From: Kaistia adipata DSM 17808
GTDB taxonomy: Bacteria; Pseudomonadota; Alphaproteobacteria; Rhizobiales; Kaistiaceae
Direction of reading: 5' to 3'
Assembly (NCBI RefSeq): GCF_000423225.1
Contig: NZ_AUHO01000007.1
Location: 558,001 to 622,000, forward strand
Length of the DNA stretch: 64,000 nucleotides
The stretch's first letter is position 1, and each line of letters starts with the position of its first letter. Below the pieces are notes generated by a model. The model had not been told where the DNA came from. It ran no database searches and saw nothing but the letters and a program-made list of their open reading frames with translations. A program made the position numbers and the translations under genes. Positions 8,092 through 39,320 of the stretch are shown piece after piece.

Positions 8092-10947
8092 ATGACACTG
8101 TATTCCGTGGCCGGCGCGCGGGCGAATGGCGCGCGCCGAGTTGGCCGTGTGCTGCGTTCCGGCGCATCGCATCTTGCACTCGGCACCGGCCTGGCGCTGA
8201 TCCTCGGCCAGCCGGCCATGGCGGCGAGCTACACGGCGGGCAGCGAGCAGGAGTTGCGGGACGCTGTCGAAGCTGCGAACGCCGCCGGCGATGCGACATC
8301 GACAATCACGCTGACAGGCAGCTTCACCGTTTCGACCGCGTCGCTGCCGACCGTCACGAAGAATCTGACGATCGACACGGGCAGCTACTTGCTGACTGCC
8401 AATGGGGACAGGAAACTCGCAACGGCCGCCGGTGCCTCCCTGACGATCGTCGGCAAGACCGCCGGGACTGCCGCCTACGGCACCGGGGCTGGCCGGTTGC
8501 TGGTCGACGCCGCGGGCACCGTGGTGATGAGCGGCGTTACCGGGAATTACTACGGCGGCATATCGGTCGAGGCAGGCACGCTCTTGATCAATGGTGGCAG
8601 CCAGATCGAGATGGGCAACACCGTGTTGGACGGATCCGTCCGTCTGACTAGTGATTCTTCCTCCCACCTCATCATTAGCGGCGCGGGCACGGAAGTCCTT
8701 GCGCGTGACGGAACCGGTTCCCTTTCGGGGGATGGCGCCGAAGCCACCATGACCGTCGAGCGTGGCGCGCACTATGTTCAGGGTACTGGGGGCTTCCTCA
8801 TCGCTTCAGGCAGTAACAACCGCAGGGGGACGCTGAACGTCGATGGTGACGGCTCGCTGGTGACGATGGCCGGACTAAGCGTGACCCATGGCCTAGGCAC
8901 CATCAACATTACCAATGGCGGCGCCCTCGAGACGACAAGGGCGGCCCTGGGCGGCTTGCTTCAACTTGCCCAGACCGGCACCGGCGTGGTCACGGTTTCG
9001 GGCGAGGGCTCGCGTTGGACCAACAGCCAAGACTTCCTGCACTATCGAGGCACGATCGACGTGCTCGACGGCGGCGAGATCAGCACGGCATCCATGCGGG
9101 TTGCTCATATCGCGAACACGGTTGCGTCGGTGCGCATCGCCGGCACGGGATCCGCGATCCGGACCACCGGCTCGGGTGACATCGATTTTGGCGCAATCGG
9201 GACCGGAACGCTGACTCTGGCCGACGGTGGACTGCTGAGCGTCCGTGACGGTGCCGGCGTGCTGAAGCTGACCGGCACCAATGCCGCCGGCAAGGCGACA
9301 CTGAACATCGGCGGCGGCGTGGGCCAGGCGGCCACCCGGGCCGGTACTCTCGAGGCGGCCGGAATCACCCTCGGGACCGGTTCAAACGTCATCAACTTCA
9401 ACCACACCGAGACGGGCTATGTCTTCGACATCCCGATTAACGGGTCCGGCGCGGTCAACCAGTTGGCCGGGCACACCATCTTCAACGCCGACCAGACCGA
9501 TTTCGCCGGCCTGACGAGCGTCTATGGCGGCACGCTTTCCGTCAATGGCGAGCTCGGCGGCACGATGGAGGTGCGCGGTGGCCGACTGCAGGGTATCGGC
9601 ACGGTCGGCGATACCGCCAACTATGCCGGCGGCGTCATCGCGCCGGGCAATTCGATCGGCATGCTGACCATCGACGGCGACTACACCGGCCATGGCGGCG
9701 TGCTCGAGATCGAGGCGGTCCTGGGCGCCGACAATTCGTCGACGGACCTGCTCTACATCACCGGCGACAGCCTGATCGGCACCGGCGCGACGCAGGTGCG
9801 GGTTGTCAATGTGGGCGGCGCGGGCGCCGAGACCACCGGTGACGGCATCAAGATCGTCGAGGTCGATGGCGTTTCGGCGGCCGATGCCTTCGTGCTCTCG
9901 GGCCCGGCGATCGGCGGCGCCTACCGCTATGATCTGTTCCAGAACGGCCTCTCTGACCTGACGAACACTGACGGCGACTGGTATCTGCGCGCCGACGGTC
10001 TGGCGCCGACGCCGCCGACCTATGAGAGCTATCCGGCCGTGATGCTCGGCCTGATCTCGCTGCCGACCTTGCAGCAGCGCGTCGGCGATCGTCGCCCCGA
10101 CCGGACCAACGAGGCGGCGGACACCGCGCTCTGGACCCGCATCGAGGGCGCGCATGCCCGCGTCAAGGCCGACAGCTCGACCACCCAGGCGTCGTATGAC
10201 AGCGACCTGTTCCAGCTGCAGGTCGGGCTCGACGGCGAGGTGATGGAGAGCGCCTCCGGCGCGCTCGTCGCCGGGCTGACGGCGCAGTACAGCCGCGTCC
10301 GCGCCGACGTGTCGTCGACGCTCGGCAACGGCTCCAACACCACCGAGGGCTACGGCATCGGCGCCACGCTGACATGGTATGGCGCGAACGGCGTCTATGT
10401 CGACGGCCAGGCGCAGCTCGCCTGGTTCGATACCGACCTCTCGGCCGATGGCGTCGGCAAGCTCGTCGATGGCCATGACGGCACGGGCTATGCGCTCTCG
10501 ATCGAGGCTGGCCGCGAGTTCGCCGTGAAAGAGGGCTGGACGGTGACGCCGCAGGCGCAGCTTGCCTATACCTCGGCCGATTTCGACGATTTCGTCGATC
10601 CCTATGGCGCCGCCGTGTCGCTTTCGAAGGGCGAGAGCCTGGAGGGCCGGGTCGGCGTCGCGCTGGGTCGCGATGCCAGCTGGCAGGATGATTCCGGCCG
10701 CGCCGTCCGCACGCATGTCTACGGCATCACCAGCCTGACCTACGAGTTCCTCGACGGCGCGACCGTCGCTGTCTCGGGCCTCGACCTGGTGGCGGAGCCG
10801 CAGAAGTTCGGCGCCGAGTTCGGCGTCGGCGGCACCTACAACTGGGGCGCCGAGAAATATGCGCTGCATGGCGAGGCGCTCGCCTCGACCAGCTTCGACG
10901 GCTCCTACGGCTACAAGGGCACGGTCGGCCTCACTGTCGGCTTTTGA
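8092..10947 (+). CDS. Autotransporter (type Va) adhesin-like protein
   Basis: A 951-residue protein. A basic, extended signal peptide ends near GQPAMA (about residue 44). The passenger of about 630 residues is a beta-helix of irregular G/T/S/N/V-rich turns (for example ITNGGALETT, LTLADGGLLSV), with the family segment GGVIAPGNSIGMLTIDGDY near its end. The C-terminal 270 residues form an autotransporter beta-barrel (LWTRIEGAHARV ... GYKGTVGLTVGF) ending in Phe as outer-membrane proteins do. No cysteine occurs in the whole protein. No protease catalytic motif is seen, so an adhesin or surface-layer role is more likely than an enzyme. Confidence 0.88.
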   Translation: MTLYSVAGARANGARRVGRVLRSGASHLALGTGLALILGQPAMAASYTAGSEQELRDAVEAANAAGDATSTITLTGSFTVSTASLPTVTKNLTIDTGSYLLTANGDRKLATAAGASLTIVGKTAGTAAYGTGAGRLLVDAAGTVVMSGVTGNYYGGISVEAGTLLINGGSQIEMGNTVLDGSVRLTSDSSSHLIISGAGTEVLARDGTGSLSGDGAEATMTVERGAHYVQGTGGFLIASGSNNRRGTLNVDGDGSLVTMAGLSVTHGLGTINITNGGALETTRAALGGLLQLAQTGTGVVTVSGEGSRWTNSQDFLHYRGTIDVLDGGEISTASMRVAHIANTVASVRIAGTGSAIRTTGSGDIDFGAIGTGTLTLADGGLLSVRDGAGVLKLTGTNAAGKATLNIGGGVGQAATRAGTLEAAGITLGTGSNVINFNHTETGYVFDIPINGSGAVNQLAGHTIFNADQTDFAGLTSVYGGTLSVNGELGGTMEVRGGRLQGIGTVGDTANYAGGVIAPGNSIGMLTIDGDYTGHGGVLEIEAVLGADNSSTDLLYITGDSLIGTGATQVRVVNVGGAGAETTGDGIKIVEVDGVSAADAFVLSGPAIGGAYRYDLFQNGLSDLTNTDGDWYLRADGLAPTPPTYESYPAVMLGLISLPTLQQRVGDRRPDRTNEAADTALWTRIEGAHARVKADSSTTQASYDSDLFQLQVGLDGEVMESASGALVAGLTAQYSRVRADVSSTLGNGSNTTEGYGIGATLTWYGANGVYVDGQAQLAWFDTDLSADGVGKLVDGHDGTGYALSIEAGREFAVKEGWTVTPQAQLAYTSADFDDFVDPYGAAVSLSKGESLEGRVGVALGRDASWQDDSGRAVRTHVYGITSLTYEFLDGATVAVSGLDLVAEPQKFGAEFGVGGTYNWGAEKYALHGEALASTSFDGSYGYKGTVGLTVGF

Positions 10948-11912: not shown

Positions 11913-12893
11913 CTAGGCGGATGGGCTTTGCCGGCGGCGGAAGCGCGGCAGGAAGGCGGAGAGGCCGGAGACGGCGTCGCTGGCGAGCGAGACGGTGACG
12001 AGGATGACGACGCCGTAGACGATCAGCAGCGCGCCGCTCGAAAGGTTCAGCGCCGGCAGCAGTCCGGTCAGGATCGTCAGCACGAGGGCGCCGGCGATGG
12101 TGCCGATATAGTGGCCGCTGCCGCCGAGGATCGACGCGCCGCCGATCGCCACCGCGGCGATCGAGGTGAAGAGATAGGGATCGCCCATGCCGAGATAGGC
12201 CTGCGCCGTGTAGCCGGTGAGCAACATGCCGGCGAGGGCGGCCGTGAAGCCGGAAAGCGTGTAGGCGAGCACCGTCGTCAGGAAGGTCGGCACGCCGGAG
12301 AACTCGGCGACGGTGGCGCTGGTGCCGACCGCGTAGAGATAGCGGCCGAAGGCGGATTTCGACAGCAGCACGGTCGCGACGACCGCGAGCGCGATCCAGA
12401 TCAGCACGACGACCGGGAAGCCCAGGATCCGCCCGACGGCGAGGAACTGGATCATCGGCGGCGCCGTCGCGGTCGGCGCGCCGCCCGTATAGACGAGGAT
12501 GCCGCCCTGCAGGATGACGTTGACGGCGAGCGTCATAATGATCGGCGGCACGCCGAACAGCGCGACGCCGAGCCCGTTCACCATGCCGACCAGCGCGCCG
12601 GCGGCGAGCAGCAGCGGCACGATCCAGAGGAGCGGCGCGTCCTGGCTGCCGGCCAAGAGCGTCATCAGCACGGCGGCCGAGTTCAGCACCCAGGGCACCG
12701 AGAGGTCGATGCCGCCGCCGATGATGACGAAGGTCTGGCCGAGCGCGACGATGCCGATGAAGGCGGCGAGCACGGCCGTGCTGCGGAGATGGGTCGGCGA
12801 CAGGAAGCCCGGCGCGACGACGCTGGTCAGCAGCAGCAGCACGATCATGCCGAGATAGGCGAGCAGGATGGCCCGGTGCCGGCGCAGGTTCAT
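11913..12893 (-). CDS. Sugar ABC transporter permease (RbsC-type), second subunit
   Basis: A 326-residue membrane protein with about 8-10 hydrophobic helices and the CUT2 motifs ALGQTFVIIGGGIDLSVPW and AVAIGGASILGGSGHYIGT. It overlaps the preceding permease by ATGA (translational coupling). Having two different permeases in one CUT2 operon suggests a heterodimeric channel. Its substrate follows the binding protein at 15545. Confidence 0.9.
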   Translation of the reverse strand: MNLRRHRAILLAYLGMIVLLLLTSVVAPGFLSPTHLRSTAVLAAFIGIVALGQTFVIIGGGIDLSVPWVLNSAAVLMTLLAGSQDAPLLWIVPLLLAAGALVGMVNGLGVALFGVPPIIMTLAVNVILQGGILVYTGGAPTATAPPMIQFLAVGRILGFPVVVLIWIALAVVATVLLSKSAFGRYLYAVGTSATVAEFSGVPTFLTTVLAYTLSGFTAALAGMLLTGYTAQAYLGMGDPYLFTSIAAVAIGGASILGGSGHYIGTIAGALVLTILTGLLPALNLSSGALLIVYGVVILVTVSLASDAVSGLSAFLPRFRRRQSPSA

Positions 12894-13927
12894 GTGAGGC
12901 TCCGTCGGGCGGATTTCTCGGCGATCGAGCTGGCGAGCACGGCGACCAGCAGGATGATGCCGGAGACGATCGGCTGCCAGTAGCTCGAGATCTCGAGCAC
13001 GAAGACGAGATTGCCGATGATGGTGAGGATGTAGGCGCCGATGATCGTGCCGACGAGGCCGCCGCGGCCGCCGAACAGGCTGATGCCGCCGATCACTGCC
13101 GCCGCCACCGAGGGCAGGATGTAGTCCTTGCCGATGGTGGGCGAGCCGGCGCCGGTCTGGGTCGTCAGGTAGAGCGCCGCCAATGCCGCGAACAGGCCGG
13201 AGAGCGCATAGGTGGCGACATTGATGCGAAGCGGCGAGACGCCGGAGAGCAGGGCTGAGCGCTCGTTCGAGCCGGTGGCGCGGATCGAGATGCCGAGCCT
13301 TGTCCGCTTGAACCAGAACCAGAAGGCGAGGAGCAGGATCAGCAGCCAGACCGAGCTCGAGAGCCCCAGCCAGTTGGCGAAGCCGAACCGCATCCAGCCG
13401 GCCGGCAGGCTGCCGCCATCGGTCGGCAGGATGATCATCGCCGCGCCGGACAGGATCGACCAGGTGGCGAGCGTCACCAGGAAGGGCTGCAGCCGCAGCA
13501 CGGTGATGAGCACGCCGTTGAGCGCGCCGACCAGGCCGCCGATGGCGACGATGCCGATTGCCCAGGCCGTGGCCTGCGCCGGATCGGTGCCGAAGCGGGT
13601 GGCGGCGAGCACGGTGCCGAGGCTGATCATGCCGCCGATCGAGAGGTCGATGCCGCCGCGCAGGAGCACGATGGTCTGGCCGGTCGCGGCGAGGATCAGC
13701 GTCATCGCCGCGGCGGTGTCGAGGTTGAGCTCGTCGATCGTGAACACGCCCTCGCGCAGTGTGCCGTAGAGCGCGAGCAGCGCGACAAGCATCACGCAGG
13801 GAATGATCAGCGACGCCCGGTCGATGAGGGCGGCGCGCAGGCCGGCCGTGGCGGCAGGGCGCGGCTGTGCGTCTGGCGCGGGATGGGAGGAGGCCGGCTT
13901 CGGCCGATCGATCGTCGTCATCGTCAT
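12890..13927 (-). CDS. Sugar ABC transporter permease (RbsC-type), first subunit
   Basis: A 345-residue protein. A polar N-terminal tail of about 30 residues is followed by CUT2 permease helices with TGQTIVLLRGGIDLSIGGMI and AAVIGGISLFGGRGGLVGT. ATG 13927 overlaps the ATPase stop (ATGA); ATG 13921 is an alternative two codons later. It is paired with the permease at 11913. Confidence 0.9.
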   Translation of the reverse strand: MTMTTIDRPKPASSHPAPDAQPRPAATAGLRAALIDRASLIIPCVMLVALLALYGTLREGVFTIDELNLDTAAAMTLILAATGQTIVLLRGGIDLSIGGMISLGTVLAATRFGTDPAQATAWAIGIVAIGGLVGALNGVLITVLRLQPFLVTLATWSILSGAAMIILPTDGGSLPAGWMRFGFANWLGLSSSVWLLILLLAFWFWFKRTRLGISIRATGSNERSALLSGVSPLRINVATYALSGLFAALAALYLTTQTGAGSPTIGKDYILPSVAAAVIGGISLFGGRGGLVGTIIGAYILTIIGNLVFVLEISSYWQPIVSGIILLVAVLASSIAEKSARRSLT

Positions 13928-15426
13928 GCCGCCCTCTCGATCATGGCGGCGCGCAGGATCTGCCGTTCCGAATTGTCCTCGCCCTCCAGCACCGCCCCGA
14001 GCCGGCCGTTACGCAGCACCGCGACACGGTCGGCGACATGCACCAGTTCGGCGAGGTCGCTCGAATAGAACAGGATGGCGTAGCCCTTGGCCGCCAGGTC
14101 GCGCATCAACTGGAAGATCTCGCCCTTGGTGCCGACGTCGATGCCGCGCGTCGGATCGTAGAGCAACAGGATGCGCGCTTCGGTCAGCAGCATCTTGCCG
14201 AAGATGACCTTCTGCTGGTTGCCGCCGGAGAGCGTGCCGGCGAGCTGCTCGGGCGTTCCCGCCTTGATCTTCAGCGCCGCGATCATCTCGTCGACGAGCT
14301 TCGCCTCGCGCTTCGGATCGGTGAGGCCGAAGCGGGTGAAGCGCGAGATCACCGAGAGCGTCAGGTTCTCGCGCACGCTGCGCGACAAGAGCAGGCCGTG
14401 ATTGCGCCGGTCCTCGGGAACGAGGGCGAGGCCATCCCGGCCGGTCAGTGCCTGGCGCGGACCGCGGATCGTCTTGGCCTTGCCCCAGATCTCGACCGTG
14501 CCGCGCGCGCCGCCGATGCCGAACAGCGCCTGGAACAGCTCGCGCTGGCCGTGGCCCTGCATGCCGGCGACGCCGAGGACCTCGCCCTCGCGGAGGTCGA
14601 GGTCGATGTCGGCGAGGCGGTGGCCGGCGCCGAAGCCGCGCAACCGGACGGCGACCCGGTCGGTCGCCGTCGGCTTCCGTTCCGGATAGAGGCGGTCCAT
14701 GCGGCGGCCGAGCATGTCGGCGATGATCGTCTCGTCGTCGACTTCCTTGGTGTCATAGGCGGCGACCGTCGCGCCGTTGCGGAAGACGGTGATGCGATCG
14801 GCGATCTGGCGCACCTCGCCGAGCCGGTGCGAGATATAGATGACCAGCGTGCCGGCCCTGGCCAGGCCCTGCGACAGCCCGAGCAGCCACTCCGTCTCGC
14901 GGGGCCCGAGCGCCGAGGTCGCCTCGTCGAGGATCAGCACCTTGGGATCGGCGGAAAGCGCCTTGGCGATCTCGACCAGCTGGCGATCGGCGAGCGTCAG
15001 CCGGCGCAGCTCCTGGTCTGGGCGGATCGCCGGGAACTGGTGCCGGGCGAACAGCGCCTCGGTCGCCTCGCGCAGCGCGCGGGCCCTGACGGTGCGGGCA
15101 AACGACAATGGCTCGCGGCGGAACCAGATGTTCTGCTCGACCGTCAGGTCGGGGATCAGCGACAATTCCTGGAACACCGGCGAGATGCCGGCGTCGCGCG
15201 CGTCCTGCGGATGGCGCGGCCGATAGGGCTGGCCGCCGAGTGTGACCGTGCCGCCGTTCGGCCGCACGGCTCCGGCGAGGATCTGGATGAAAGTGCTCTT
15301 GCCGGCGCCGTTCTCGCCGAGCAGCGCATGCACTTCGCCGGCGCGTGCCGAGAAATCCGCGCGGCTCAGCGCGACGATACCGCCATAGTTCTTGGTGACG
15401 GCGGTGGCGGTCAGAAGTTCGGTCAT
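13924..15426 (-). CDS. Sugar ABC transporter ATPase, double-domain (RbsA-type)
   Basis: About 500 residues with two nucleotide-binding domains. The first has GENGAGKST and a relaxed signature (LTLADRQLVEIAKAL). The second has a degenerate Walker A region (GMQGHGQRE) but an intact LSGGNQQKV signature, the usual asymmetry of RbsA-like ATPases. ATG 15426 (MTELLTATAVTKNYGG) is chosen. The in-frame upstream codons to 15504 encode a Pro/Arg-rich stretch with no family likeness. It lies 118 bp downstream of the binding-protein gene. Confidence 0.9.
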   Translation of the reverse strand: MTELLTATAVTKNYGGIVALSRADFSARAGEVHALLGENGAGKSTFIQILAGAVRPNGGTVTLGGQPYRPRHPQDARDAGISPVFQELSLIPDLTVEQNIWFRREPLSFARTVRARALREATEALFARHQFPAIRPDQELRRLTLADRQLVEIAKALSADPKVLILDEATSALGPRETEWLLGLSQGLARAGTLVIYISHRLGEVRQIADRITVFRNGATVAAYDTKEVDDETIIADMLGRRMDRLYPERKPTATDRVAVRLRGFGAGHRLADIDLDLREGEVLGVAGMQGHGQRELFQALFGIGGARGTVEIWGKAKTIRGPRQALTGRDGLALVPEDRRNHGLLLSRSVRENLTLSVISRFTRFGLTDPKREAKLVDEMIAALKIKAGTPEQLAGTLSGGNQQKVIFGKMLLTEARILLLYDPTRGIDVGTKGEIFQLMRDLAAKGYAILFYSSDLAELVHVADRVAVLRNGRLGAVLEGEDNSERQILRAAMIERAA

Positions 15427-15544
15427 GCTCGGCCGAGCCCTCGACGGGAATGGAAGGCGAGACGCCGTCTGTCGGGCGGGCGTCCATGAGGGCCTCGCCC
15501 CCATGCGGGGCGAGGCGATGGCGACAGGGTGCCTGCCGGCTTCG

Positions 15545-16603
15545 TCAGGTGCCGGCGGCTTCCTGCGGCGTGATCTCGACCCAGTCCGGCGTGATCGGCA
15601 GCGACAGGCCCGGCGCGAGATCCGGGAAGGCGTTCTTGCCGATCTCGATCTTCTCCATCTTCACGTCCGGATAGAGCTTCGAGGGCTGCGGATCGGTGGC
15701 GAGGAAGGGGCCGTAGACGAAGACGTGCTTGTCCTTGACTTCCTTGCCGTCGAGGATGTCGACCGCGAGCTTCAGCGCCTCGGCCGAGAGATAGGCCGGG
15801 TTGGTCTCAAGGATGCACTCAGCCCCTTCGGTCTGCGCGCAGACCAGCGAGGCGGTGTTGTAGCCGCCGCCGGCGACCGGCACGAGCGGGCGGCCGGCAT
15901 CCTGAAGTGCCTTGATCGCGCCGGAGCCGTAGCCCTGGGTCAGGATCGCGTCGACCTGCGGATGGGCGGCGAGCAGCGAGGCGACGCCCTCCTGCTCGGG
16001 GCCGAGCGCGTAATTGCCGTTGAAGTAGCCGACGATCTCGATGCCGGGATAGTTCTTCAGCACCTTCTCGAAGCCGGATTGCAGCTGCTCGGAGATCGGC
16101 GCGCCGGCGAGGCCGCGATCAACGAACACCTTGCCCTTGCCGCCGATCTTCTCGGCGATCCATTCCGCCTGCACGGCTGGAATGCGGTTCCAGTCAGATT
16201 CGAGCTTGTAGGCGCAGTCGGCGGTGGCCACCTGGTCGAAGGTGATGACGAGAATGCCGGCGGCGCAGGCCTTCTCGATCGTCGGGTTCAGCGCCGTCGG
16301 CGAGCCGACGTCGATCAGGATGGCGTCCGGCTTGGCGCGGATGATGTTGTTGAGCGAGTTGATCTGCGCCTGCGTCGTCGTCTCGACATTCTCGACCTTC
16401 AGGTCGACGCGGCCGGCGAGCGGCGGCTTCTTCACGGTGGTTTCGGCGATGCGCAGCATCTGCTGGCGCCAGTCATTGCCGACGAAATTGTTGGAGAGAT
16501 AGATCTTGTAGGGCTTCTTTTCCTCGGCCTTGGCCCCGGGAACGAGGCTAGACGTCAGAACGATCGCCGACAGGGCGGCGAGTGCGGCGGCTGTGCGCTT
16601 CAC
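15545..16603 (-). CDS. Periplasmic sugar-binding protein (RbsB-type)
   Basis: About 352 residues with a GTG start at 16603 preceded by GGGAGG at ideal spacing; the 132 in-frame bases upstream lie in the promoter/operator region and are not coding. A signal peptide (KRTAAALAALSAIVLTSSLVPGAKA) is followed by a peripla_BP_4-type fold with IYLSNNFVGNDWRQQM, DAILIDVGSPTALNP, QGYGSGAIKAL and VPVAGGGYNTAS. It is the first gene of the operon SBP-ATPase-permease-permease-lactonase. Upstream are a LacI-type palindrome (16674) and the shared 18-bp operator (16744), so it probably has two inputs. The ligand is a sugar or polyol of unknown identity. Confidence 0.9.
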   Translation of the reverse strand: MKRTAAALAALSAIVLTSSLVPGAKAEEKKPYKIYLSNNFVGNDWRQQMLRIAETTVKKPPLAGRVDLKVENVETTTQAQINSLNNIIRAKPDAILIDVGSPTALNPTIEKACAAGILVITFDQVATADCAYKLESDWNRIPAVQAEWIAEKIGGKGKVFVDRGLAGAPISEQLQSGFEKVLKNYPGIEIVGYFNGNYALGPEQEGVASLLAAHPQVDAILTQGYGSGAIKALQDAGRPLVPVAGGGYNTASLVCAQTEGAECILETNPAYLSAEALKLAVDILDGKEVKDKHVFVYGPFLATDPQPSKLYPDVKMEKIEIGKNAFPDLAPGLSLPITPDWVEITPQEAAGT

Positions 16604-16673
16604 GGTGTTTCCTCCCTCAAGGAACGCTGTCCAGCATGGGTGCGGATGCTTCTTCCGAAAGGCGGCATCCGTT

Positions 16674-16689
16674 TTGATAACGCTACCAT
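16674..16689. promoter_or_regulatory. LacI-type operator-like site upstream of RbsABC operon
   Basis: TTGATAACGCTACCAT matches the reverse complement of the palindrome at 37843-37858 at 13 of 16 positions, with the same central CG. It lies 71 bp upstream of the binding-protein start, between that gene and the 18-bp A+T-rich operator. The LacI-family gene at 30470 is the proposed regulator (inference). Confidence 0.5.
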
Positions 16690-16743
16690 CATCCGGCGAC
16701 CCCGAAAGGGCCGACGATCCGCCGCATCTCCTCAATGCGGCGA

Positions 16744-16792: not shown

Positions 16793-17617
16793 TCAGCCGA
16801 GATCGTTCGGCGCGTCGTAAGAAAGGCTGAACAGATCGGCGCGGTTCTTGTTGATCGTCAGCTCGACCGCTTCGCCGGTGGTCGAGAAATACAGCATCTC
16901 GATGACGAGGATCGGGCCGCCGACGGCGTAGTCGAGCGCCTTCGCCAGCGCCTCGTCGGCGATGTCGGCGCGCACCGTGATGCGGGCGTTGGAGAGCTGG
17001 ATGCCGAGATGGCGCTGCAGCGCGCGGAACACCACCACGTCGTCGAAATCGGCCCGCTTCAGCCGGCTGCCGATCGCCGGCGGAAAGTAGAAGGTGGTCT
17101 GCCCGGTGGGGCCGTCCTTCTGGTGCAGCGTCGCGCGCAGGCAGTGGCAGGTCTCGTCCGCCTTCAGGCCGAACGCGGCGGCGGCCGTGGCCGAGCGTTC
17201 CTTGCGGTAGGAATGGATCTCGAGCGCGCGGCCCTTGGTCGATTCCGCGATCTGCGCGAAGCTCCGGAAGGCGAAGCTCGGCATGGCCGGGGCCGGCGGC
17301 GCCGTCACGATCGCCGGCTTGGCGGCGCGCTTCTTGATCAGGCCGTCATTCTCGAGGTCGCGCAGCGCCTGGCGCACGGTGATCAGGCTGACGCCGAAGC
17401 GCTCGGCGAGATCGGCCTCGCGCGGCAGCGATGTCCCCGGCACGAGCGTGCCATTGGCGATCGGCTCCTTCAGGATGCCGAGCAACTGTCGGTAGAGCGG
17501 GCCGTCCTCGCGCGAGAGAATGCGCGGCTGGAAGCTTTCGAGTGAGGCCGTGGCGCCGGCGGAATCGGTCGACGTCTCGCCGAACTGCTCCATCTTGCTT
17601 GATTCCACCCTGCTCAT
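16793..17617 (-). CDS. GntR/HutC-family transcriptional regulator
   Basis: A 274-residue regulator. A flexible N-terminus of about 35 residues is followed by a winged helix (PLYRQLLGILKEPIANGTLVPG ... FGVSLITVRQALRDLENDGLI, about residues 40-95) and a UTRA effector domain (about 115-270). Start choice is loose: ATG 17593 is an alternative with better ribosome-binding-site spacing. It lies between the RbsABC operon and the divergent SDR, each with a copy of the shared operator, so autoregulation and control of a multi-operon regulon are likely (inference). The effector is probably a sugar or sugar-phosphate. Confidence 0.88.
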   Translation of the reverse strand: MSRVESSKMEQFGETSTDSAGATASLESFQPRILSREDGPLYRQLLGILKEPIANGTLVPGTSLPREADLAERFGVSLITVRQALRDLENDGLIKKRAAKPAIVTAPPAPAMPSFAFRSFAQIAESTKGRALEIHSYRKERSATAAAAFGLKADETCHCLRATLHQKDGPTGQTTFYFPPAIGSRLKRADFDDVVVFRALQRHLGIQLSNARITVRADIADEALAKALDYAVGGPILVIEMLYFSTTGEAVELTINKNRADLFSLSYDAPNDLG

Positions 17618-17704
17618 TCCTCAGAATCGCTTTTGTTCGCCAGTCAAATTAGCGAGTTTCAGCGCCTAGTTCCAACCGCTCGCAATTGCCGTCCTGTCGG
17701 TTAG

Positions 17705-17720
17705 ATTATAGTATCATAAT
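17705..17720. promoter_or_regulatory. Shared operator, copy B (GntR/SDR divergent promoter)
   Basis: ATTATAGTATCATAAT is an imperfect inverted repeat (6 of 8 per half). Read on the minus strand and extended to 18 bp, it matches the operator consensus at 12 of 18 positions, making it one of the two most divergent copies. It lies between the GntR start (17617) and the SDR start (17773), suitable for autoregulation. Confidence 0.45.
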
Positions 17721-17772
17721 AGATAAAAGAAGTCCGATCGGTTCGGACCGGCATTGGGGAAGGGCAGGGCAT

Positions 17773-18552
17773 ATGCGCAGCGATCTCACGGGCAAGGTCG
17801 CCTTCGTCACGGGGGCGGCCGGCGGCATCGGGCGCGGCATCGTCGCCCGCCTGGCAGCGAACGGCGCCTCGGTGATCGTCGCCGACATCAACGAGGCCGG
17901 CGCGCGCGAGGTGGCGGACAGCCTGCCGGATGCGCTCGCCGCGACCGTCGACATCCGCGATCCCGGCTCGATCGACGCCGCCGTCGCCGCGACGATGGCG
18001 GCCTATGGCCGGCTCGACATCCTCGTCAACAATGCCGGCGTCAACACCCACGCGCACCGGGTCAATGTCGACCAGTTTCCGGACGACGAATGGGGCCGGA
18101 TCGTCGGCATCGACCTCGACGGGCTGTTCCGCATGAGCCGGGGCGCGCTGGCGCCGATGCTGGCCGGCGGCCGCGGCGGGCGGGTGATCAACATCGCTTC
18201 GGTGGTCGGCCTCGCGGCGATGCGGCTGCAGAGCCCGTTCGTCGCCGCCAAGGCGGGCATCATCCACCTGACCCGCTCGATGGCGCTGGAGCTCGGGCCG
18301 CAGGGCGTGCTCACCAACGCGATCGCGCCGGGCTCGATCATGACCGAGGGCACCAAGGCGCTGTTCTATGGCGCCGAGGGTCAGTTCCAGGCCAAGACCA
18401 AGGCGTTCATGGAGCACATTCCGCTCGGCCGGCCCGGCACGCCGGAGGAGATCGCGGAGGCCGTGCTGTTCCTCGCGGCGCCGGAATCCGCCTACATCAA
18501 CGGCCAGATCCTCGCCGTCGATGGGGGCTGGACGGCCGGCTACATGATGTGA
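17773..18552 (+). CDS. SDR-family protein with altered catalytic tetrad
   Basis: A 259-residue classical-length SDR. The cofactor loop TGAAGGIG (13-20), NNAG (86-89), S143 and K160 are intact. The catalytic Tyr is Phe156 (SPFVAAK), and the usual tetrad Asn in the VNLxG segment is Asp114 (IDLDG). The C-terminus carries DGGWTAGYMM. ATG 17773 has AGGGCAGGG upstream; an in-frame ATG at 17686 lies inside the operator region and is rejected. It may bind NAD(P) yet be catalytically weak, or use other chemistry. It is transcribed divergently from GntR and is part of the shared-operator regulon. Confidence 0.85.
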   Translation: MRSDLTGKVAFVTGAAGGIGRGIVARLAANGASVIVADINEAGAREVADSLPDALAATVDIRDPGSIDAAVAATMAAYGRLDILVNNAGVNTHAHRVNVDQFPDDEWGRIVGIDLDGLFRMSRGALAPMLAGGRGGRVINIASVVGLAAMRLQSPFVAAKAGIIHLTRSMALELGPQGVLTNAIAPGSIMTEGTKALFYGAEGQFQAKTKAFMEHIPLGRPGTPEEIAEAVLFLAAPESAYINGQILAVDGGWTAGYMM

Positions 18553-18642: not shown

Positions 18643-19344
18643 TCAGACGAGAAGCCGCAGCGGCGCCTCGATCAGGTCGCGGAATCCGGCGAGGATCTCT
18701 GTCGCGTCGCCCTCCGGAATGACCTCCGCATCGTGCACCAGCAGCACCTCCGCCGTCGCCGCGTCGTCGCTGGCGACGACGAGGAAGCGGAGATCGGCAT
18801 CGGCCGGCAGCGAGCCGGCGACCGGCCGGATGCCCTTCGTCGTCAGCCGCGACAGCACCAAAGCCTTGCCGCTTGCGCCGGCGTTCGCGTCGCCGGCCAG
18901 CAGGCGGGCGATCTCGGTCGGCGCGAGCGCCACGGCGCGCGGGATGGTCACGCCGCCGCCCTCCGGCTTGATCCAGCGAACGGCATCGGCCTTCGTCCCG
19001 GCGGCGCGGGCCGCCGCCTTGACCAGGAAGGCGTCGATTGGAAGCTCGGCGCCGGACGCGGCGACGAACTCGGCAAGCGGGCCGAGTTCGACGGTCGCGG
19101 AAAAGGCCGAGATCGACCTTGCTGGCGCCGCGGCAACGACCGGAGCCGCTGCGGGGGCGGGGGCCGCCACCTCGACAGCTGGGGCCGGGCCGGGAGCCAC
19201 CGCCACGGCCGCCGTCAGCGGAACGTCGCCGGCGACGATGCGGCCGTTGGGGCCGGAGCCGGCGACGAGCGACAGCGGGATGCCGCGCTCGCGGGCGAGC
19301 CGTCGCGCATAGGGCGAGGCGAGGGTTCTCAACGGGGCGTTCAT
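18643..19344 (-). CDS. Mini-E2 (PSBD plus degenerate acyltransferase domain) of a 2-oxoacid-dehydrogenase-like complex
   Basis: Only 233 residues. A peripheral subunit-binding domain (ASPYARRLARERGIPLSLV then GPNGRIVAGDV, about residues 9-42) is followed by an Ala/Pro linker and a shortened acyltransferase fold (about 75-233). It has no lipoyl domain of its own. Canonical E2 ends with DHRxxDG; the aligned stretch here is DAEVIPE, so the catalytic His and Asp are absent, although the flanking LIEAPLRLLV tail is kept. It follows the E1 fusion gene by 10 bp. It probably organises the complex rather than transferring acyl groups (inference). Confidence 0.8.
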   Translation of the reverse strand: MNAPLRTLASPYARRLARERGIPLSLVAGSGPNGRIVAGDVPLTAAVAVAPGPAPAVEVAAPAPAAAPVVAAAPARSISAFSATVELGPLAEFVAASGAELPIDAFLVKAAARAAGTKADAVRWIKPEGGGVTIPRAVALAPTEIARLLAGDANAGASGKALVLSRLTTKGIRPVAGSLPADADLRFLVVASDDAATAEVLLVHDAEVIPEGDATEILAGFRDLIEAPLRLLV

Positions 19345-19354
19345 CGGATCCCCC

Positions 19355-21814
19355 TCAGCGCCGGACGCTGCCGATGCGGCCGCCCATCGGCACGACCGCG
19401 CCCTTTTGCTGCTCGATCGGCCCGAGAATGCCGTCGACCGGCGCCTCGATCTCGACCACCGCCTTGTCGGTTTCGATCTCGGCGACGATCTCGCCGGCCT
19501 TGACCGTGTCGCCTTCCGCCTTCAGCCAGCCGACGATCGTGCCTTCCGAGACGGTCAGGTCGCCGAACGGCATGGTGATCGGCTCGCCGTCACCGGCCGG
19601 CGCAGCCGCCGGGGCAGGGGCAGCCGCAGCCGCTGGGGCGGGCGCCGGAACGGGTGCCGCAACAGGGGCCGCCGCGACCGGTGCCGCCGCGAGCTGGCCG
19701 CCGCCGACATGGCGCCAGTGCTTCGGCACCGGCGGCTTGCCGGCCAGCACGCCCTTGGCGCCGGCGACGATCTTGTCGGTGTCGACCAGCATGGCGCGCT
19801 CGAGCGCCGGGGCGAGCGGGTGCGGCTGCGCGTCGGTGTTCAACCGGCCGACCGGCGCGTCGAGATCGTCGAAGGCGAGCTCGTTCATCGCCTGCGCCAC
19901 CTCGGCGCCGACGCCGAACGCGCCCCAGCCCTCGTCGACCACCAGCAGCCGGTGCGTCTTCGAAACCGATTTCGCCACCGTGCCGACATCGAGCGGCATG
20001 ATGGTGCGGAGGTCGATCACCTCGGCTGAAATGCCCTCGGCGGCGAGCTTCTCCGCCGCCTCCAGCGCACGGTGCACCAGTTGCCCGGCCGCGACGATGG
20101 TGATGTCGGCGCCCTCGCGGGCGATCCTGGCGAGGCCGAACGGCACCAGATGCTCGCCGGTCGGCACCGCGCCCTTGGTGGCGAACAGCGCCTTCGGCTC
20201 CAGCATGATCACCGGGTCGCCGGCCCGGAGCGCCGTCTTCATCAACCCCTTGGCGTCGGCCGGCGTCGAGGGCATGCAGACGATCAGGCCCGGGATGTTG
20301 GCCCAGCTCGGATGATAGGTGCCGCTGTGATGGGGGCCTGCCGAGCGCACCGCGCCGGAGCCGACGCGCACCACCATCGGCGCGTTCATCTGGCCGTTCG
20401 ACATGTAGCGCAGCTTCGCCGCCTGCAAGACGATCTGGCCCGCCGCCTCGAACACGAAATCGGCGAACATAAGATCCGCGATGGTTCGGGATCCCGTCGC
20501 CGAGGCGCCGATCGCGGCGCCGGTAAAGCCCTGCTCGGAGATCGGCGTGTCGACCATCCGCTTCGGGCCGAACTCGGTCCAGAGGTTCTTGGTGTGGGCG
20601 AAGGTGCCGCCGCGCTCGCCCGTGCCCTCGCCGAGATAGAGGATGTTTCGGTCGCGGCGCATCTCCTCGGCGATGCCGTCGCGCACCGCATCGAGCCAGC
20701 TCTGCGTCTGGCTTGCCGTCGGCGCTGCCTGCACCAGCGCATCGGCCGGGTTGATCGGCTCGGCATAGACATGCAGCGCCGTCGTCGCGGCGTCCGGCTC
20801 CGGCGAATTGCGGGCGAATTCGAGCGACTTCTGCACGACGGCGTCGATCTTCGCGTCGATCGCGTCGAGCTCCGCCGCCGAGGCCGTGGCGAAATCATCG
20901 ACGATGCGGGCGCGCAGCATCCGGATCGGATCGCGCTTCGCCCATTCGTCGACCTCCGCCTGGGTGCGGTAGGTGCCGGTGACCGGGTCGCCCTCGTGAT
21001 GGCCGACGGTGCGGTAGGTCTTTGCCTCGATCAGCGTCGGGCCCTCGCCGGAGCGGGCGCGCGCCGTCGCCTCGGCCATCACCTGCCACACGGCGATGAC
21101 GTCGTTGCCGTCGACGGCGACGCCGGGAATGCCGTAGGCCGCCGCGCGGGTGGCGATCTCCGGGTTCAGCGTCGCCGAGGCGAGCGGCGTCGCGGTCGCG
21201 TAGAGGTTGTTCTCGCAGACGAAGATCGCCGGCGCCTTCTGGATGCCGGCGAAGTTGAGCGATTCATGGAAGCCGCCATGGTTGGTGGCGCCGTCGCCGA
21301 AGAAGGCGACGCCGATGTCGTCGCGGCCCTGGGTGCGGGCCGACATGCCGGCGCCGACCGCGTGGCTGATGCCGGCGGCGACGATGCCGTTGGTGCCGAA
21401 CAGGCCGACCGAGCGGTCATAGAGATGCATGGTGCCGCCGCGGCCGCCGCAGCAGCCGTCGCGCTTGCCGAACAGCTCCGCCATCAGGATGTCGGGGTCC
21501 ATGCCCTTGGCGAGCGCGTGGCCATGGCCGCGATGGGTCGAGGTGATCCAGTCGGCCGGCCTGAGATGCGCGCAGACGCCGACGGCGGTCGCTTCCTCGC
21601 CGATATAGAGATGCAGGAATCCGGGCGTCTCGCCCTTGCGGCAGGCGGTCTGCGCCACGCTCTCGAATTTCCGCAGCAGCACCATCTGCTCGTAGAGATC
21701 GAGCAGCGCCTTGGCGGTCAGCCCCTCCGGCAGCGCCTTGCCCGGCGCGCTGCGGAAGACCGGGGCGTCGACCTTCGGCGCGCGGATCGTCGGTGTCATC
21801 ACTTGAGCGCTCAT
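19355..21814 (-). CDS. E1alpha-E1beta-lipoyl fusion of a 2-oxoacid/acetoin-dehydrogenase-like complex
   Basis: About 819 residues. The E1alpha part (about 25-340) has the thiamine-diphosphate motif GDGATNHGG (173) to NN (202-203) and YRTVGHHEGDP. The E1beta part (about 365-695) has PISEQGFTGAAIG (active-site Glu), AAKLRYMSNGQ and VVDEGWGAFG. An Ala/Pro linker follows, then a lipoyl domain with ETDKAVVEI, where Lys784 is the lipoylation site. The similarity is to acetoin- and pyruvate-type E1. ATG 21814 (MSAQVMTPT) with AGGGAGG upstream is preferred over ATG 21874. No E3 gene is in the window. It likely cleaves a C-C bond next to a keto group and loads the acyl unit on its own lipoyl arm; the substrate is unknown. 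Confidence 0.88.
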   Translation of the reverse strand: MSAQVMTPTIRAPKVDAPVFRSAPGKALPEGLTAKALLDLYEQMVLLRKFESVAQTACRKGETPGFLHLYIGEEATAVGVCAHLRPADWITSTHRGHGHALAKGMDPDILMAELFGKRDGCCGGRGGTMHLYDRSVGLFGTNGIVAAGISHAVGAGMSARTQGRDDIGVAFFGDGATNHGGFHESLNFAGIQKAPAIFVCENNLYATATPLASATLNPEIATRAAAYGIPGVAVDGNDVIAVWQVMAEATARARSGEGPTLIEAKTYRTVGHHEGDPVTGTYRTQAEVDEWAKRDPIRMLRARIVDDFATASAAELDAIDAKIDAVVQKSLEFARNSPEPDAATTALHVYAEPINPADALVQAAPTASQTQSWLDAVRDGIAEEMRRDRNILYLGEGTGERGGTFAHTKNLWTEFGPKRMVDTPISEQGFTGAAIGASATGSRTIADLMFADFVFEAAGQIVLQAAKLRYMSNGQMNAPMVVRVGSGAVRSAGPHHSGTYHPSWANIPGLIVCMPSTPADAKGLMKTALRAGDPVIMLEPKALFATKGAVPTGEHLVPFGLARIAREGADITIVAAGQLVHRALEAAEKLAAEGISAEVIDLRTIMPLDVGTVAKSVSKTHRLLVVDEGWGAFGVGAEVAQAMNELAFDDLDAPVGRLNTDAQPHPLAPALERAMLVDTDKIVAGAKGVLAGKPPVPKHWRHVGGGQLAAAPVAAAPVAAPVPAPAPAAAAAPAPAAAPAGDGEPITMPFGDLTVSEGTIVGWLKAEGDTVKAGEIVAEIETDKAVVEIEAPVDGILGPIEQQKGAVVPMGGRIGSVRR

Positions 21815-21887
21815 CATTCCTCCCTTTCCCCGCTGTTGACGGGGCGATGCGGCCGCGCGTCCGGACATGGACACCGCATCTAAAATT

Positions 21888-21905: not shown

Positions 21906-22112
21906 GTTATCGGGCGGCGAGTTGCCAAGACCCAATCGGACTCGCCAAGGCCCAATCGACGGTGCGTGCACAGCGTTTGCGGCGGGTTCCGCCGAGCCGC
22001 GCATCGACAGCCGGAGATGGATGCCGCAAACAGGACGCCTGCCGCTGGCGGCGGAAACAGGGAAGAGGGCCGGGGCAGCGCCGCGAGGCGCCCGGCGGGG
22101 GAGGAGAAGATC

Positions 22113-22703
22113 ATGGAGATCGAGATCGCGGGCCGCGCGGCGCGCATTCTTGGCGCGCGCAACGCTGTTGCGGAAAGCGTGGCGGCGGCGCTCGCCGAAA
22201 ACGGCGCTGTTGTCGCCTGGGGCGAGGCGTCCGGCGGCGCCGGCACGCCCGACATCCTCGTGCTCTCGCATGCGCTGGCGCCCGACGCGGAAGATCAGCC
22301 CGAGGCGCTTGCGGCGCGCGCCGAGGCGATCGCGGCCGCCATGGTCGCGCGCGGCTCGGGCCGCATCGTTCATCTCGTCTCGGCCGCCGGCCTCGTGCCG
22401 ATGCGCCGCCATCCGGCCTGGTCGGCGGCGCATGCCGGCGCCATCGCCGCGATGCGCGGCCTCGCCATGGCGAGCGGCCCGGCCGTCCAGGTCAACGCCG
22501 TCGCCGTCGGCCGCATCGAGGCCGACGACGCCACGACCGGCGACGCCGCCATGCTCTCCCACGTCCCGCTCGGCCGCGCCGGCAGTGTCGACGACGTCGC
22601 CAACGCCGTGCTCTTTCTCGTCGACCCGCTGAACAGCTACACCACCGGCCAGTCCCTCGCCGTCGACGGCGGCTGGACCACCGGCTACGGCCGGAATTTT
22701 TGA
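22113..22703 (+). CDS. Degenerate SDR-fold protein (probable pseudoenzyme)
   Basis: A 196-residue SDR relative, shorter than the usual 250. The cofactor signature TGxxxGIG is replaced by LGARNAVAES (13-22). NNAG is missing, the serine is kept (S90), but Tyr and Lys are W103 and H107 (HPAWSAAHAG). The C-terminal SDR features are kept: LGRAGSVDDVANAVLFL and DGGWTTGY, which closely match the end of the SDR at 17773. ATG 22113 follows GGGGGAGGAG. An open, intact frame with a good ribosome-binding site argues for a working non-catalytic subunit rather than decay. It is divergent from the E1 operon with a shared operator between. Confidence 0.75.
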   Translation: MEIEIAGRAARILGARNAVAESVAAALAENGAVVAWGEASGGAGTPDILVLSHALAPDAEDQPEALAARAEAIAAAMVARGSGRIVHLVSAAGLVPMRRHPAWSAAHAGAIAAMRGLAMASGPAVQVNAVAVGRIEADDATTGDAAMLSHVPLGRAGSVDDVANAVLFLVDPLNSYTTGQSLAVDGGWTTGYGRNF

Positions 22704-23570: not shown

Positions 23571-24440
23571 ATGATCGAACTCGCCGCCGGAGACCTCTCC
23601 CTCGTCCTCGCGCCGGAAATCGGCGGCTCGATCGCCGCCTTCCGGAAGAACGGCGTCGATGTCATGCGGGCGCTGACGCCGGAGCGCGCCGCGAAGGGCG
23701 ACGTTCTCGGCGTCGCCTCCTTCCCGATGCTGCCCTATGCCAACCGCATCGATGGCAACCAGTTCACCTTCGACGGCGTCACCTACCGCTTCGCCGCCAA
23801 CAACGGCGCCGAGCGCTTCAACGTGCATGGCACGGGCTGGCATTCGGCCTGGGCCGCGAAGCAGATCTCCGACACCTCCGTTGAAATGACGCTGGAGCGC
23901 CGCGTCGCCGGCGAGCCCTACCAGTACCGCGCCACGCAGCGTTTCGAGCTTTCGCCCGAGGGGCTGGTGCTTTCGACGACGCTCGAAAATCTCGGCCCGG
24001 TCCGCATGCCGTTCGGCTTCGGCCACCATCCCTGGTTCGACCGCGACGCCGATGTCGTGATGACCTTTGCCGCCAAGCACTTCTGGCTCGAGGCGCCGGA
24101 CGGCGTCGCCGGCTCGCGCATCGCCACCTCGCCCGAGCTCGATTTCTCCCGCGGCGCCGGCCTGCCAAACCACTGGCGCAACAATGATTATTCCGGCTGG
24201 GACGGAAGCGCCACGCTGCGTTTTCCCTCGCGCGGCGTGACGCTCGTCATCGAGGCCGATCCGATCTTCGAAAACCTGATGCTCTACGCCGACCCGAAGC
24301 AGAGCTTCTTCTGCCTTGAACCCCAGACCAACGTCCCCTGCGCCCCCAACAAGCTGGAAGCCGGCGAGGAAGGACTCGGCCTGGTGGTGCTCAAGCCGGG
24401 CGAGGCGATGGCGGGGGTGGTGCGGTTTGGGGTGAGGTGA
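23571..24440 (+). CDS. Aldose 1-epimerase (mutarotase) family protein
   Basis: A 289-residue GalM-type fold: N-terminal APEIGGSIAAF, then LPYANRI (substrate Arg), NVHGTGW, the catalytic-His segment FGFGHHPWF (about residues 158-166) and LEPQTNVPC, where the Glu would be the base. It interconverts alpha and beta anomers of a free sugar in the cytosol. It stands alone between repeat-filled gaps, on the opposite strand to the importer genes downstream. The exact sugar is unknown, but the location fits the sugar-catabolic island. Confidence 0.85.
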   Translation: MIELAAGDLSLVLAPEIGGSIAAFRKNGVDVMRALTPERAAKGDVLGVASFPMLPYANRIDGNQFTFDGVTYRFAANNGAERFNVHGTGWHSAWAAKQISDTSVEMTLERRVAGEPYQYRATQRFELSPEGLVLSTTLENLGPVRMPFGFGHHPWFDRDADVVMTFAAKHFWLEAPDGVAGSRIATSPELDFSRGAGLPNHWRNNDYSGWDGSATLRFPSRGVTLVIEADPIFENLMLYADPKQSFFCLEPQTNVPCAPNKLEAGEEGLGLVVLKPGEAMAGVVRFGVR

Positions 24441-24828: not shown

Positions 24829-25605
24829 CTACAGCAACAGCGCCGTCAGGCCGCCATCGGCGGTGAACGCGCTACCGGTGACGAAGGACGCGTCGTCGGA
24901 GAGCAGGAAGGCGATGGCGCGGGCAAGCTCCTTGGGGTCGGCGACGCGCGGCACCCTGCGCTCGTCGAAATAGAGCCCGGCCGCCTCGACCCTTTCGCGC
25001 GCGTCGGGCGCGTCGCCGAGCGTCATCCGCGTCGCCACCGAGCCGACGACAACCGCGTTGACGCGGATGCGGTCGCAAGCATAGTCGAGCGCCATCTGCT
25101 TCGAGAGGCCGACCACGGCCGCCTTGGTGGCGGCATAGGCGGGGACGCCGGGGACGGTCGCGATCGCGTGCACCGAGGCCAGATTGACGACCGAGCCGCC
25201 GCCCGAAGCGCGGAGCCACGGCAGCGCCGCGCGGCAGACGCGAAAGATGGCGGTCAGATTGACCGAGACGCAGAGATCCCACTCGGCATCCGTGACGTCT
25301 TCCAGGCGCTTGCCGGTCGGATAGATGCCGGCGCAGTTGACGACGGCGTCGAGCCGCCCGGACTGTTTCTGCGCACCCGCGACCGCCGCGCGGATCGCGG
25401 CGTCGTCGGTCAGGTCTACTTCCGAGAAGAAGAGCGGCAGGCCGCGTTTCGCGTAGTCGGTGGCGAGCGCCTGGCCTTCGGCCGCGTCGAGGCCGATGCC
25501 GTGCACGCTGGCTCCCTCGGCGACGAGATGTTCGGCGGTGGCGCGGCCGATGCCGGTCGCGGCGCCCGTGACCAGGATTGATTTGCCGGCGAAGCGTTTC
25601 GTCAT
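24829..25605 (-). CDS. SDR-family oxidoreductase
   Basis: A 258-residue classical SDR with intact motifs: TGAATGIG (about residues 14-21), NCAG, VNLTAIF (tetrad Asn), LASVHA (Ser) and YAATK (Tyr/Lys). It ends with TADGGLTALLL. ATG 25605 overlaps the ATPase stop codon; longer in-frame extension upstream is only the shadow of the ATPase gene. As last gene of the second RbsABC operon it likely oxidises the imported sugar or polyol with NAD(P). Its intact tetrad contrasts with the two altered SDRs of the same regulon. Confidence 0.87.
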   Translation of the reverse strand: MTKRFAGKSILVTGAATGIGRATAEHLVAEGASVHGIGLDAAEGQALATDYAKRGLPLFFSEVDLTDDAAIRAAVAGAQKQSGRLDAVVNCAGIYPTGKRLEDVTDAEWDLCVSVNLTAIFRVCRAALPWLRASGGGSVVNLASVHAIATVPGVPAYAATKAAVVGLSKQMALDYACDRIRVNAVVVGSVATRMTLGDAPDARERVEAAGLYFDERRVPRVADPKELARAIAFLLSDDASFVTGSAFTADGGLTALLL

Positions 25606-34045: not shown

Positions 34046-35212
34046 TCACTTCTCGGTCCGCTGCCCCAGCCGCTTCTCCCAGCCCTCGGCGTGGATGTTG
34101 AGGAACGCCCTGGGGTCATAGGGATGGGCGCACGCCACCTCGTCGTTGAGCTCGATGCCGAGGCCCGGCGCGTCGGGCAGCGACAGATGGCCGTTCGCCG
34201 GATCGATCACCGGGTGCCAGCTGACGAGGTCGCGCGTCCACGGCTCGTTGAAGGCGTCGAAATGCTCCTGGATCAGGAAATTCTCGACGCAGGCGGCGAG
34301 CTGCAGGCAGACGGCGGTGGCGACCGGGCCGCCGCTCTGGTGCGGGGCGATGTAGCTGCCATGCGCCTGCGCCAGATGGGCGACGGCCATCGAATTGCCG
34401 ATGCCGCCGAGCGACATCGGCTCGGGCTGGAAGATGTTGACGCCGCCGCCCTCGGCCAGGGTGAAGAACTGGCCGACGGTATCGTACATCTCGCCGGTCG
34501 CGACGCGGATCGGGCTCGCATGGCCGACCGCGTGCACCGTCTCCTGCCGGTCGCGCGTCGTCGGTTCCTCCCACCAGTAGAGGTCGAGATGCGCCAGCCG
34601 GTTGGCGGCGCGGATCGCCTCGGCCTCGGTGAAGCGGGCATGCACGTCGATCAGCAGATGCGTGTGCTTCGGCAGCCCTTCGCGCAGCGCTGTGAGGATC
34701 TGCTCCGCCAGATCCAGCTCGGGCTCGGATATAAAACCCTGCGCGGTGCCGAACGGGTCGAGCTTCATCGCCTTGAAGCCTTTTCCGATGACGGCCTTCG
34801 CCGCGTCGAGGAAGGCCTCCGGCGTGCGTTCGGCGCGATACCAGCCATTGGCGTAGCCGAGCATGCTGTCGCGCACCCGGCCGCCGAGCAGCTGGTGCAC
34901 CGGAACGCCGAGCGATTTTCCCAGAATGTCCCAGCAGGCGACCTCGATCGCCGCGATCGCCGTGCGGTGGATGTGGCCGCCGTCGAGCGAGACGCTGTCG
35001 AGCATTTTTCTCGCCAAGGCCGTGACGCGGCGCGGATCGGCGCCGATGACGAAATGCTCCAGCTCGCGGATCGCCGCCTCGGTCGTGCGGATGAAGCCGT
35101 TCAGCGTGCCTTCGCCGAGGCCCGTGATGCCGGCATCGGTATGGACGCGGACGAACAGCCAGTTCTTCCAGCCGGCGCCGACGGCGAAGGTCTCGATCTC
35201 GGTGATCTTCAT
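34046..35212 (-). CDS. Enolase-superfamily sugar-acid dehydratase (mandelate racemase type)
   Basis: About 388 residues. ATG 35212 (MKITEIETFAV) has GGGGGAG upstream. The capping domain has GTLNGFIRTTEAAI, and barrel residues are visible: Lys in GFKAMKLDPFG, the metal ligands Asp in LLIDVHARFT, Glu in WWEEPT and Glu in VATGEMYD, and His in APHQSGGP. The arrangement resembles gluconate/galactonate-type dehydratases, which give a 2-keto-3-deoxy acid. It is the last gene of the SDR-transketolase operon. The exact aldonate is unknown. Confidence 0.82.
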   Translation of the reverse strand: MKITEIETFAVGAGWKNWLFVRVHTDAGITGLGEGTLNGFIRTTEAAIRELEHFVIGADPRRVTALARKMLDSVSLDGGHIHRTAIAAIEVACWDILGKSLGVPVHQLLGGRVRDSMLGYANGWYRAERTPEAFLDAAKAVIGKGFKAMKLDPFGTAQGFISEPELDLAEQILTALREGLPKHTHLLIDVHARFTEAEAIRAANRLAHLDLYWWEEPTTRDRQETVHAVGHASPIRVATGEMYDTVGQFFTLAEGGGVNIFQPEPMSLGGIGNSMAVAHLAQAHGSYIAPHQSGGPVATAVCLQLAACVENFLIQEHFDAFNEPWTRDLVSWHPVIDPANGHLSLPDAPGLGIELNDEVACAHPYDPRAFLNIHAEGWEKRLGQRTEK

Positions 35213-39309: not shown

Positions 39310-39320
39310 CTTGGTCTCGG

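Follow-up and report, generated by a model that had tools for sequence, protein, structure and literature searches.

A fused E1 with its own lipoyl domain and a putative pseudo-E2 form an unusual 2-oxoacid dehydrogenase variant in Kaistia adipata

The textbook division of labor in 2-oxoacid dehydrogenase complexes is that E1 makes the acyl group, E2 carries and transfers it, and E3 resets the carrier. Two adjoining reverse-strand genes of Kaistia adipata DSM 17808, at positions 18643..21814 of the 64,000-nucleotide stretch analyzed here (contig NZ_AUHO01000007.1, positions 558,001 to 622,000; hereafter the window), encode an unusual variant of this kind, in which E1-alpha, E1-beta and a lipoyl domain are fused in a single chain that is accompanied by a small E2-like protein (mini-E2) without the E2 catalytic histidine. 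The reading we favor, and hold to be somewhat probable, is that of an E1 with its own lipoyl arm and a pseudo-E2 that recruits a shared lipoamide dehydrogenase (E3) in the manner of the E3-binding protein (E3BP), with acyl transfer borrowed from the pyruvate dehydrogenase (PDH) core or absent.

The fusion gene (19355..21814, reverse strand, as are all parts of both genes) was delineated by open reading frame (ORF) reading and Pfam searches and encodes 819 residues, to which an alternative GTG start at 21874 would add 20. Pfam found E1_dh, Transket_pyr, Transketolase_C and Biotin_lipoyl in this order, every match exceeding the Pfam cut-off, in agreement with the initial annotation, which had placed both E1 parts and a lipoyl domain in one chain. 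The E1-alpha domain (E1_dh, residues 43-341, 20792..21688, E = 1.2e-80) carries the motifs THRGHGH and GHHEGD, and E1-beta is represented by its N-terminal part (Transket_pyr, residues 371-544, 20183..20704, E = 2.9e-37) and its C-terminal part (Transketolase_C, residues 561-682, 19769..20134, E = 9e-37). An Ala/Pro-rich linker of about 40 residues (699-740, 19595..19720), with pLDDT under 50 and predicted to be disordered in a structure model of middling quality (mean pLDDT 70), leads to the lipoyl domain (Biotin_lipoyl, residues 753-813, 19376..19558), which was confirmed with an E-value of 2.3e-14 and 53 bits against a cut-off of 22. Lys784 lies there within ETDKA, and we take DKA at the hairpin to mark a lipoyl rather than a biotinyl domain. 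The best NCBIfam match of this part was the acetoin E2 model NF011457, below that model's cut-off.

A single pattern scan of genome contigs, which finds close relatives only, returned 39 loci, of which 38 have a fused E1 and L047 has the E1 genes apart; two of the 38 (L040 and L042) come from one metagenome-assembled genome and may be the ends of one gene, so that 38 loci may be 37 genes. After exclusion of six loci cut at contig ends, the window and 32 further loci were aligned. Position 784 is Lys in 33/33 rows, and G173 D174 G175, N202 N203, H272, E427 and H495/H496, which we take to be the thiamine diphosphate (ThDP) motif and active-site residues of E1, are likewise invariant in all 33, with the ThDP motif GDG...NN present. 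The fusion is thus, by its sequence, an E1 of the alpha/beta type followed by a lipoyl-type domain, with Lys784 as the putative lipoylation site. Its closest relatives in named genomes belong to four Kaistia species (83-89% identity), a fifth Kaistia reaching 78%, and the ratio of nonsynonymous to synonymous change (dN/dS) of the fusion was 0.12-0.27 (Nei-Gojobori, 15 pairs).

Mini-E2 (18643..19344, 233 residues) starts 10 bases after the end of the fusion and was characterized by Pfam and alignment. It is composed of a peripheral subunit-binding domain (E3_binding, residues 8-41, 19222..19323, E = 8.9e-16), a linker and a core; the binding domain is its sole Pfam match at E<=1, a threshold at which neither a lipoyl nor a 2-oxoacid_dh domain was matched. 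The expectation of a partner with a subunit-binding but no lipoyl domain was therefore correct. The shrunken core (residues 76-233, 18646..19119) was recognized by HHalign, structure prediction and Foldseek. Its profile (the last ~160 residues) aligned with that of 13 E2 catalytic domains over 157 columns with 97.4% probability (E = 1.3e-11); among the controls, 30 column shuffles of the E2 profile did not exceed 1.3%, four unrelated local families did not exceed 0.7%, and reversing the profile gave 0.4%. With 158 residues against 213-226 in normal E2 cores, it is ~30% shorter, corresponding to a loss of about 65 residues. An AlphaFold2 model built from 14 sequences had a mean pLDDT of 86 and is predicted to have the E2-core fold: the best 50 of 131 Foldseek matches in the PDB (E<=0.001) were E2 cores, E3BP or E2-containing models, with E-values of 5e-13 to 1e-7.

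The position of the E2 catalytic His is occupied by Ala206 (18727..18729), the motif DHRxxDG reading DAEVIPE. Among 17 distinct mini-E2s aligned, the window's included, with identical copies and a partial sequence from G007 (L054) set aside beforehand, this residue was Ala, Ser, Glu or Pro in 17/17 and His in none, and an eighteenth mini-E2 from another family of the order (L096) has Glu. The His was kept in 13/13 comparison E2s, eight of which had been chosen by that same motif, the others being L036, L068, L070, L071 and L072. A conserved GxRPV motif is peculiar to the mini-E2s. That mini-E2 is merely a divergent E2 was considered and rejected, since the two profiles align through to the C-terminus and the active-site column is clear. 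Because the active-site His is gone from all 17 and Pfam 2-oxoacid_dh is not matched, the partner first annotated as an E2 is better described as a pseudo-E2, that is, a docking domain on a reduced and apparently inactive E2-derived core. The dN/dS of this core, like that of the fusion a rough estimate with synonymous differences high in many pairs, lay at 0.21-0.37 for the 17 closest pairs out of 45.

Acyltransferase (2-oxoacid_dh) domains number two in the K. adipata genome, those of the E2s of PDH and of 2-oxoglutarate dehydrogenase (OGDH), and no third was found. With only these two available, an acyl group on Lys784 would therefore pass to a foreign E2 core, be hydrolyzed or go to an unrecognized acceptor. 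Exactly two matches were also found in 8 of 16 other genomes with the fusion, and a ninth (G065) had two above the cut-off and one below. As initially annotated, no E3 gene is adjacent to the fusion: two lipoamide dehydrogenases exceed the family cut-off and are encoded on other contigs, adjoining the PDH and OGDH genes, and two further proteins that fall short of it (320-335 bits) map to still different contigs.

Within the fused-E1 loci, the lipoyl domain is present in 34/38 (33 by motif search and L036 by alignment), the other four reaching a contig edge first. Genes directly downstream of these 34 fusions were called at E<=1e-4 with dehydrogenase profiles built from the same loci, Pfam identity being checked on one example each, and were mini-E2 in 12, a D-2-hydroxyacid dehydrogenase in 15, an Ldh_2 protein in one (L017), an intact E2 in one (L036) and none of these in five. 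No intact acyltransferase domain was found in the examined flank (~1 to 8 kb downstream) of 33/34. The 12 loci with mini-E2 are labeled as several genera; in a survey of 397 genomes of the order, the mini-E2 core occurs in 13; within the genus, 13 genomes out of 14 have it, the remaining one also being without the fusion. The verrucomicrobial locus L036 has, beside the fusion, an intact E2 with a binding domain and no lipoyl domain, its active site kept, and branches first among the 11 fusions sampled (support 90/92 for the rest), which in this small sample suits an ancestral active E2 that was later lost. The fusion is thus not unique, and the open-access literature searched contained no description of this fusion, of a characterized member or of a bacterial E3BP.

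Searches of plasmids gave no match to mini-E2 at E<=1e-5 and 740 records for the fusion, all under 60% identity, and the fusion with mini-E2 occurred in none of the 13 annotated plasmid regions examined (15 in all, the unannotated L082 and L083 standing outside that count). A fused E1-alpha/E1-beta devoid of a lipoyl domain does exist (L080, L085). On the Agrobacterium plasmid L085 (3881-7364), such a fused E1 is followed in a row by a stand-alone biotin/lipoyl-type protein and an alpha/beta hydrolase, with lipA nearby. On a Sphingomonas plasmid (L088, 4959-7942), E1-alpha, E1-beta, a 77-residue lipoyl protein and a 233-residue E2 are four genes near aromatic-degradation genes.

The E1 part of the fusion is 42-44% identical to two E1s from butanediol dehydrogenase operons, which are the acetoin-type members among ten separate-subunit E1s compared (the rest being of sugar type or from other settings), and 39% identical to the E1 of the own PDH. 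GHxEGD was present in 11/11 sampled fusions, whereas of the 13 other E1s just the two of acetoin type had it, and THRGHGH was found in the 11 fusions and in 8/10 separate-subunit E1s, of acetoin and sugar types alike; the counterparts of THRGHGH and GHxEGD in the own PDH E1 are YRDHGH and GHSMSD. An E1 tree of 24 rows, in which branches are long and 10 of the 21 forks stay open, groups the 11 fusions as one clade (100/100). This motif evidence, thin as it is, favors alpha-hydroxyketone cleavage over pyruvate decarboxylation, and the substrate is possibly a sugar-derived hydroxyketone.

As we envisage its working, the fused chain would bind its substrate, which may be such an acetoin-like, sugar-derived alpha-hydroxyketone in place of pyruvate, split it with the help of ThDP and load the acyl group reductively onto the lipoyl arm that it carries at Lys784. 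Mini-E2 would tether a shared E3 through its E3-binding domain, and its shrunken, presumably dead core would provide a scaffold for oligomerization or docking, the part that E3BP plays in eukaryotic PDH. Because no dedicated acyltransferase domain was found in the genome, the PDH E2 core would most likely act in trans to pass the acyl group to CoA; the other course is release as the acid.

Several observations weigh against this proposal. Three to six acyltransferase matches above the cut-off were found in 7/16 of the other fusion genomes, and bacterial subunit-binding domains, according to PMC10156792, need not prefer E3 over E1. Neither mini-E2 nor E2 lies downstream in 21/34 fusion loci, and the pseudo-E2 is therefore not needed by the family at large. 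The Foldseek TM-scores of the mini-E2 model, normalized by query, were modest (0.48-0.58 in the best 50 of 131 matches), and the dN/dS of its core over all 45 pairs (0.21-0.92) indicates weaker constraint than that on the fusion. On the side of the substrate, the fusion E1 is 41-45% identical to all ten separate-subunit E1s, so that the acetoin type is not singled out; THRGHGH also occurs in six non-acetoin rows; and the E1 tree neither settles the sister of the fusions nor places them inside the acetoin clade.

A narrower alternative, partly overlapping with a shared-E3, arm-bearing E1, is that no acyltransferase is used and that the acyl-dihydrolipoyl thioester is hydrolyzed, giving free acid and aldehyde with NADH from E3, mini-E2 serving only to recruit E3. 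The flanks without an intact acyltransferase domain at 33/34 fusion loci and an own genome whose E2 domains are those of PDH and OGDH only would fit such a course, and the fused E1 of Agrobacterium does have an alpha/beta hydrolase and a free-standing biotin/lipoyl-type protein for neighbors; however, no such hydrolase was present among the 26 distinct window ORFs scanned, and a related Phaeobacter operon retains an intact E2. We regard hydrolysis as possible but unlikely. That the complex is an ordinary one of acetoin or pyruvate type, with mini-E2 still transferring acyl groups through other residues, appears very improbable: the E2-like predicted fold of mini-E2, its own conserved GxRPV motif and the intact active site of the verrucomicrobial homologue L036 speak for this, but the catalytic His is lost in 17/17 together with about 65 residues of the domain, and the Pfam domain is missed even at E<=1. 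Least credible of all is that mini-E2 is a functionless, decaying remnant, given that, despite lost catalytic residues, a constraint weaker than that on E1 and its absence beside many fusions, its ORF is kept by the fusion in 12 loci of several genera and in 13/14 genomes of the genus, with dN/dS at the low end in the closest pairs and a confidently predicted fold.

The pair of genes is flanked by conserved partners, two of which are short-chain dehydrogenases/reductases (SDRs). SDR-A (17686..18552, forward strand) reads FxxxK at the catalytic YxxxK; Phe (SPFVAAKAG) stands where the catalytic Tyr would be, both in the window and at 14 further loci, L023 of Rhodospirillales being among them, and the Tyr is retained in L036 and 10 other orthologues, most of which are of Rhodospirillales kind. 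SDR-B (21966..22703, forward strand), which has counterparts in 12 other fusion loci, is a degenerate SDR with neither the Gly motif nor YxxxK and is a possible pseudo-enzyme partner of SDR-A. In a third SDR (24829-25602), the YxxxK site is normal (YAATK). To judge from these motifs, the E2 and the two SDRs appear to have drifted together from normal catalysis in this lineage.

A GntR/HutC-type regulator (16793..17617, reverse strand) is likewise a conserved partner in many fusion loci, and a ribose-type sugar ATP-binding cassette (ABC) transporter (11913..16735, reverse strand) comprises two permeases, an ATPase and a binding protein. An aldose-1-epimerase-like protein (23571..24440, forward strand) matched below the curated cut-off, and further neighbors of the fusion include a second sugar ABC set, SDRs and an SMP-30 lactonase. 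The sugar setting described at the outset is thereby upheld. The ~20 kb around the fusion hold SDRs, the lactonase, the epimerase-like gene, a sugar-acid dehydratase, an HpcH aldolase and a split transketolase, and these neighbors fix no pathway or substrate for the fusion. The split transketolase (35209-37033, reverse strand) has its N- and C-terminal halves as two genes and adjoins the dehydratase, a member of the enolase superfamily (34046-35293). An HpcH/HpaI aldolase and a D-2-hydroxyacid dehydrogenase ORF lie at 38515-40913 (reverse strand), gene types that also flank fusions elsewhere, and an autotransporter with an autochaperone and a beta-domain is encoded at 8092-10947 (forward strand).

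Among the known systems with which the pair can be compared is the own PDH. The initial annotation had seen the swinging arm as moved from E2 to E1, and a lipoyl domain is indeed on the fusion, but this is not in itself new, as the own PDH E1-beta bears one at its N-terminus; that complex differs in having a separate E1-alpha and an intact E2 with a lipoyl domain of its own. With acetoin dehydrogenase E1 (AcoA/AcoB-like), the fusion shares GHxEGD, in our sample common only to the two E1s of butanediol dehydrogenase operons, along with the identity to them given above; unlike that enzyme, it has alpha and beta fused, a C-terminal lipoyl arm, no AcoC and a sugar setting, and non-acetoin E1s are equally similar to it. 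The plasmid operons of Phaeobacter/Rhodobacteraceae (L068, L071) have a comparable setting of sugar ABC and SDR genes, a two-lipoyl protein and an E2 without a lipoyl domain, but their E1-alpha and E1-beta are separate, the lipoyl domains lie off E1, the E2 is intact and, in L068, an E3 is present. Their two-lipoyl proteins (L068, 9962-11248; L071, 10043-11338), which adjoin the intact lipoyl-free E2 and have an unassigned tail and, in L068, a weak E3-binding match below the Pfam cut-off, are candidates for another bacterial E3BP-like arrangement; their tail gave no convincing match to mini-E2 or E2 (HHalign 10.8 and 12.7%, with two sequences only).

Mini-E2, to judge from its sequence, resembles E3BP/PDHX and the fungal PX protein in joining a subunit-binding domain to an inactive E2-derived core, which in fungi is also reduced (PMC10156792). 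It differs in being bacterial, in having no lipoyl domain and in lying beside an acetoin-like E1 with no E2 of its own; the likeness is one of make-up. E3BP is argued in the same source to be a broadly eukaryotic gene, and a pseudo-E2 of this build in a bacterium would be an instance of convergence, and a conveniently small one. Actinobacterial OdhA (KGD) is likewise a rearranged complex that shares parts with PDH in trans, as we propose here; in PMC10415282, OdhA is described as having E1 and an acyltransferase and borrowing the PDH lipoyl arm, whereas the present pair has the E1 and the arm but lacks the acyltransferase, making the two mirror images of each other. An independently evolved bacterial pseudo-E2 of E3BP type, serving an arm-bearing E1 that has no acyltransferase of its own, is an explanation that we hold almost as readily as not, either as a plug-in to the PDH core mirroring OdhA or as a new ThDP-lipoyl enzyme that would yield free acid from a sugar ketone. 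With its carrier on E1 and its dead-looking local transferase, the K. adipata pair thus offers a natural test of whether an arm can be served by the core of another complex, as in the reverse of OdhA, or can work with no transfer to CoA.

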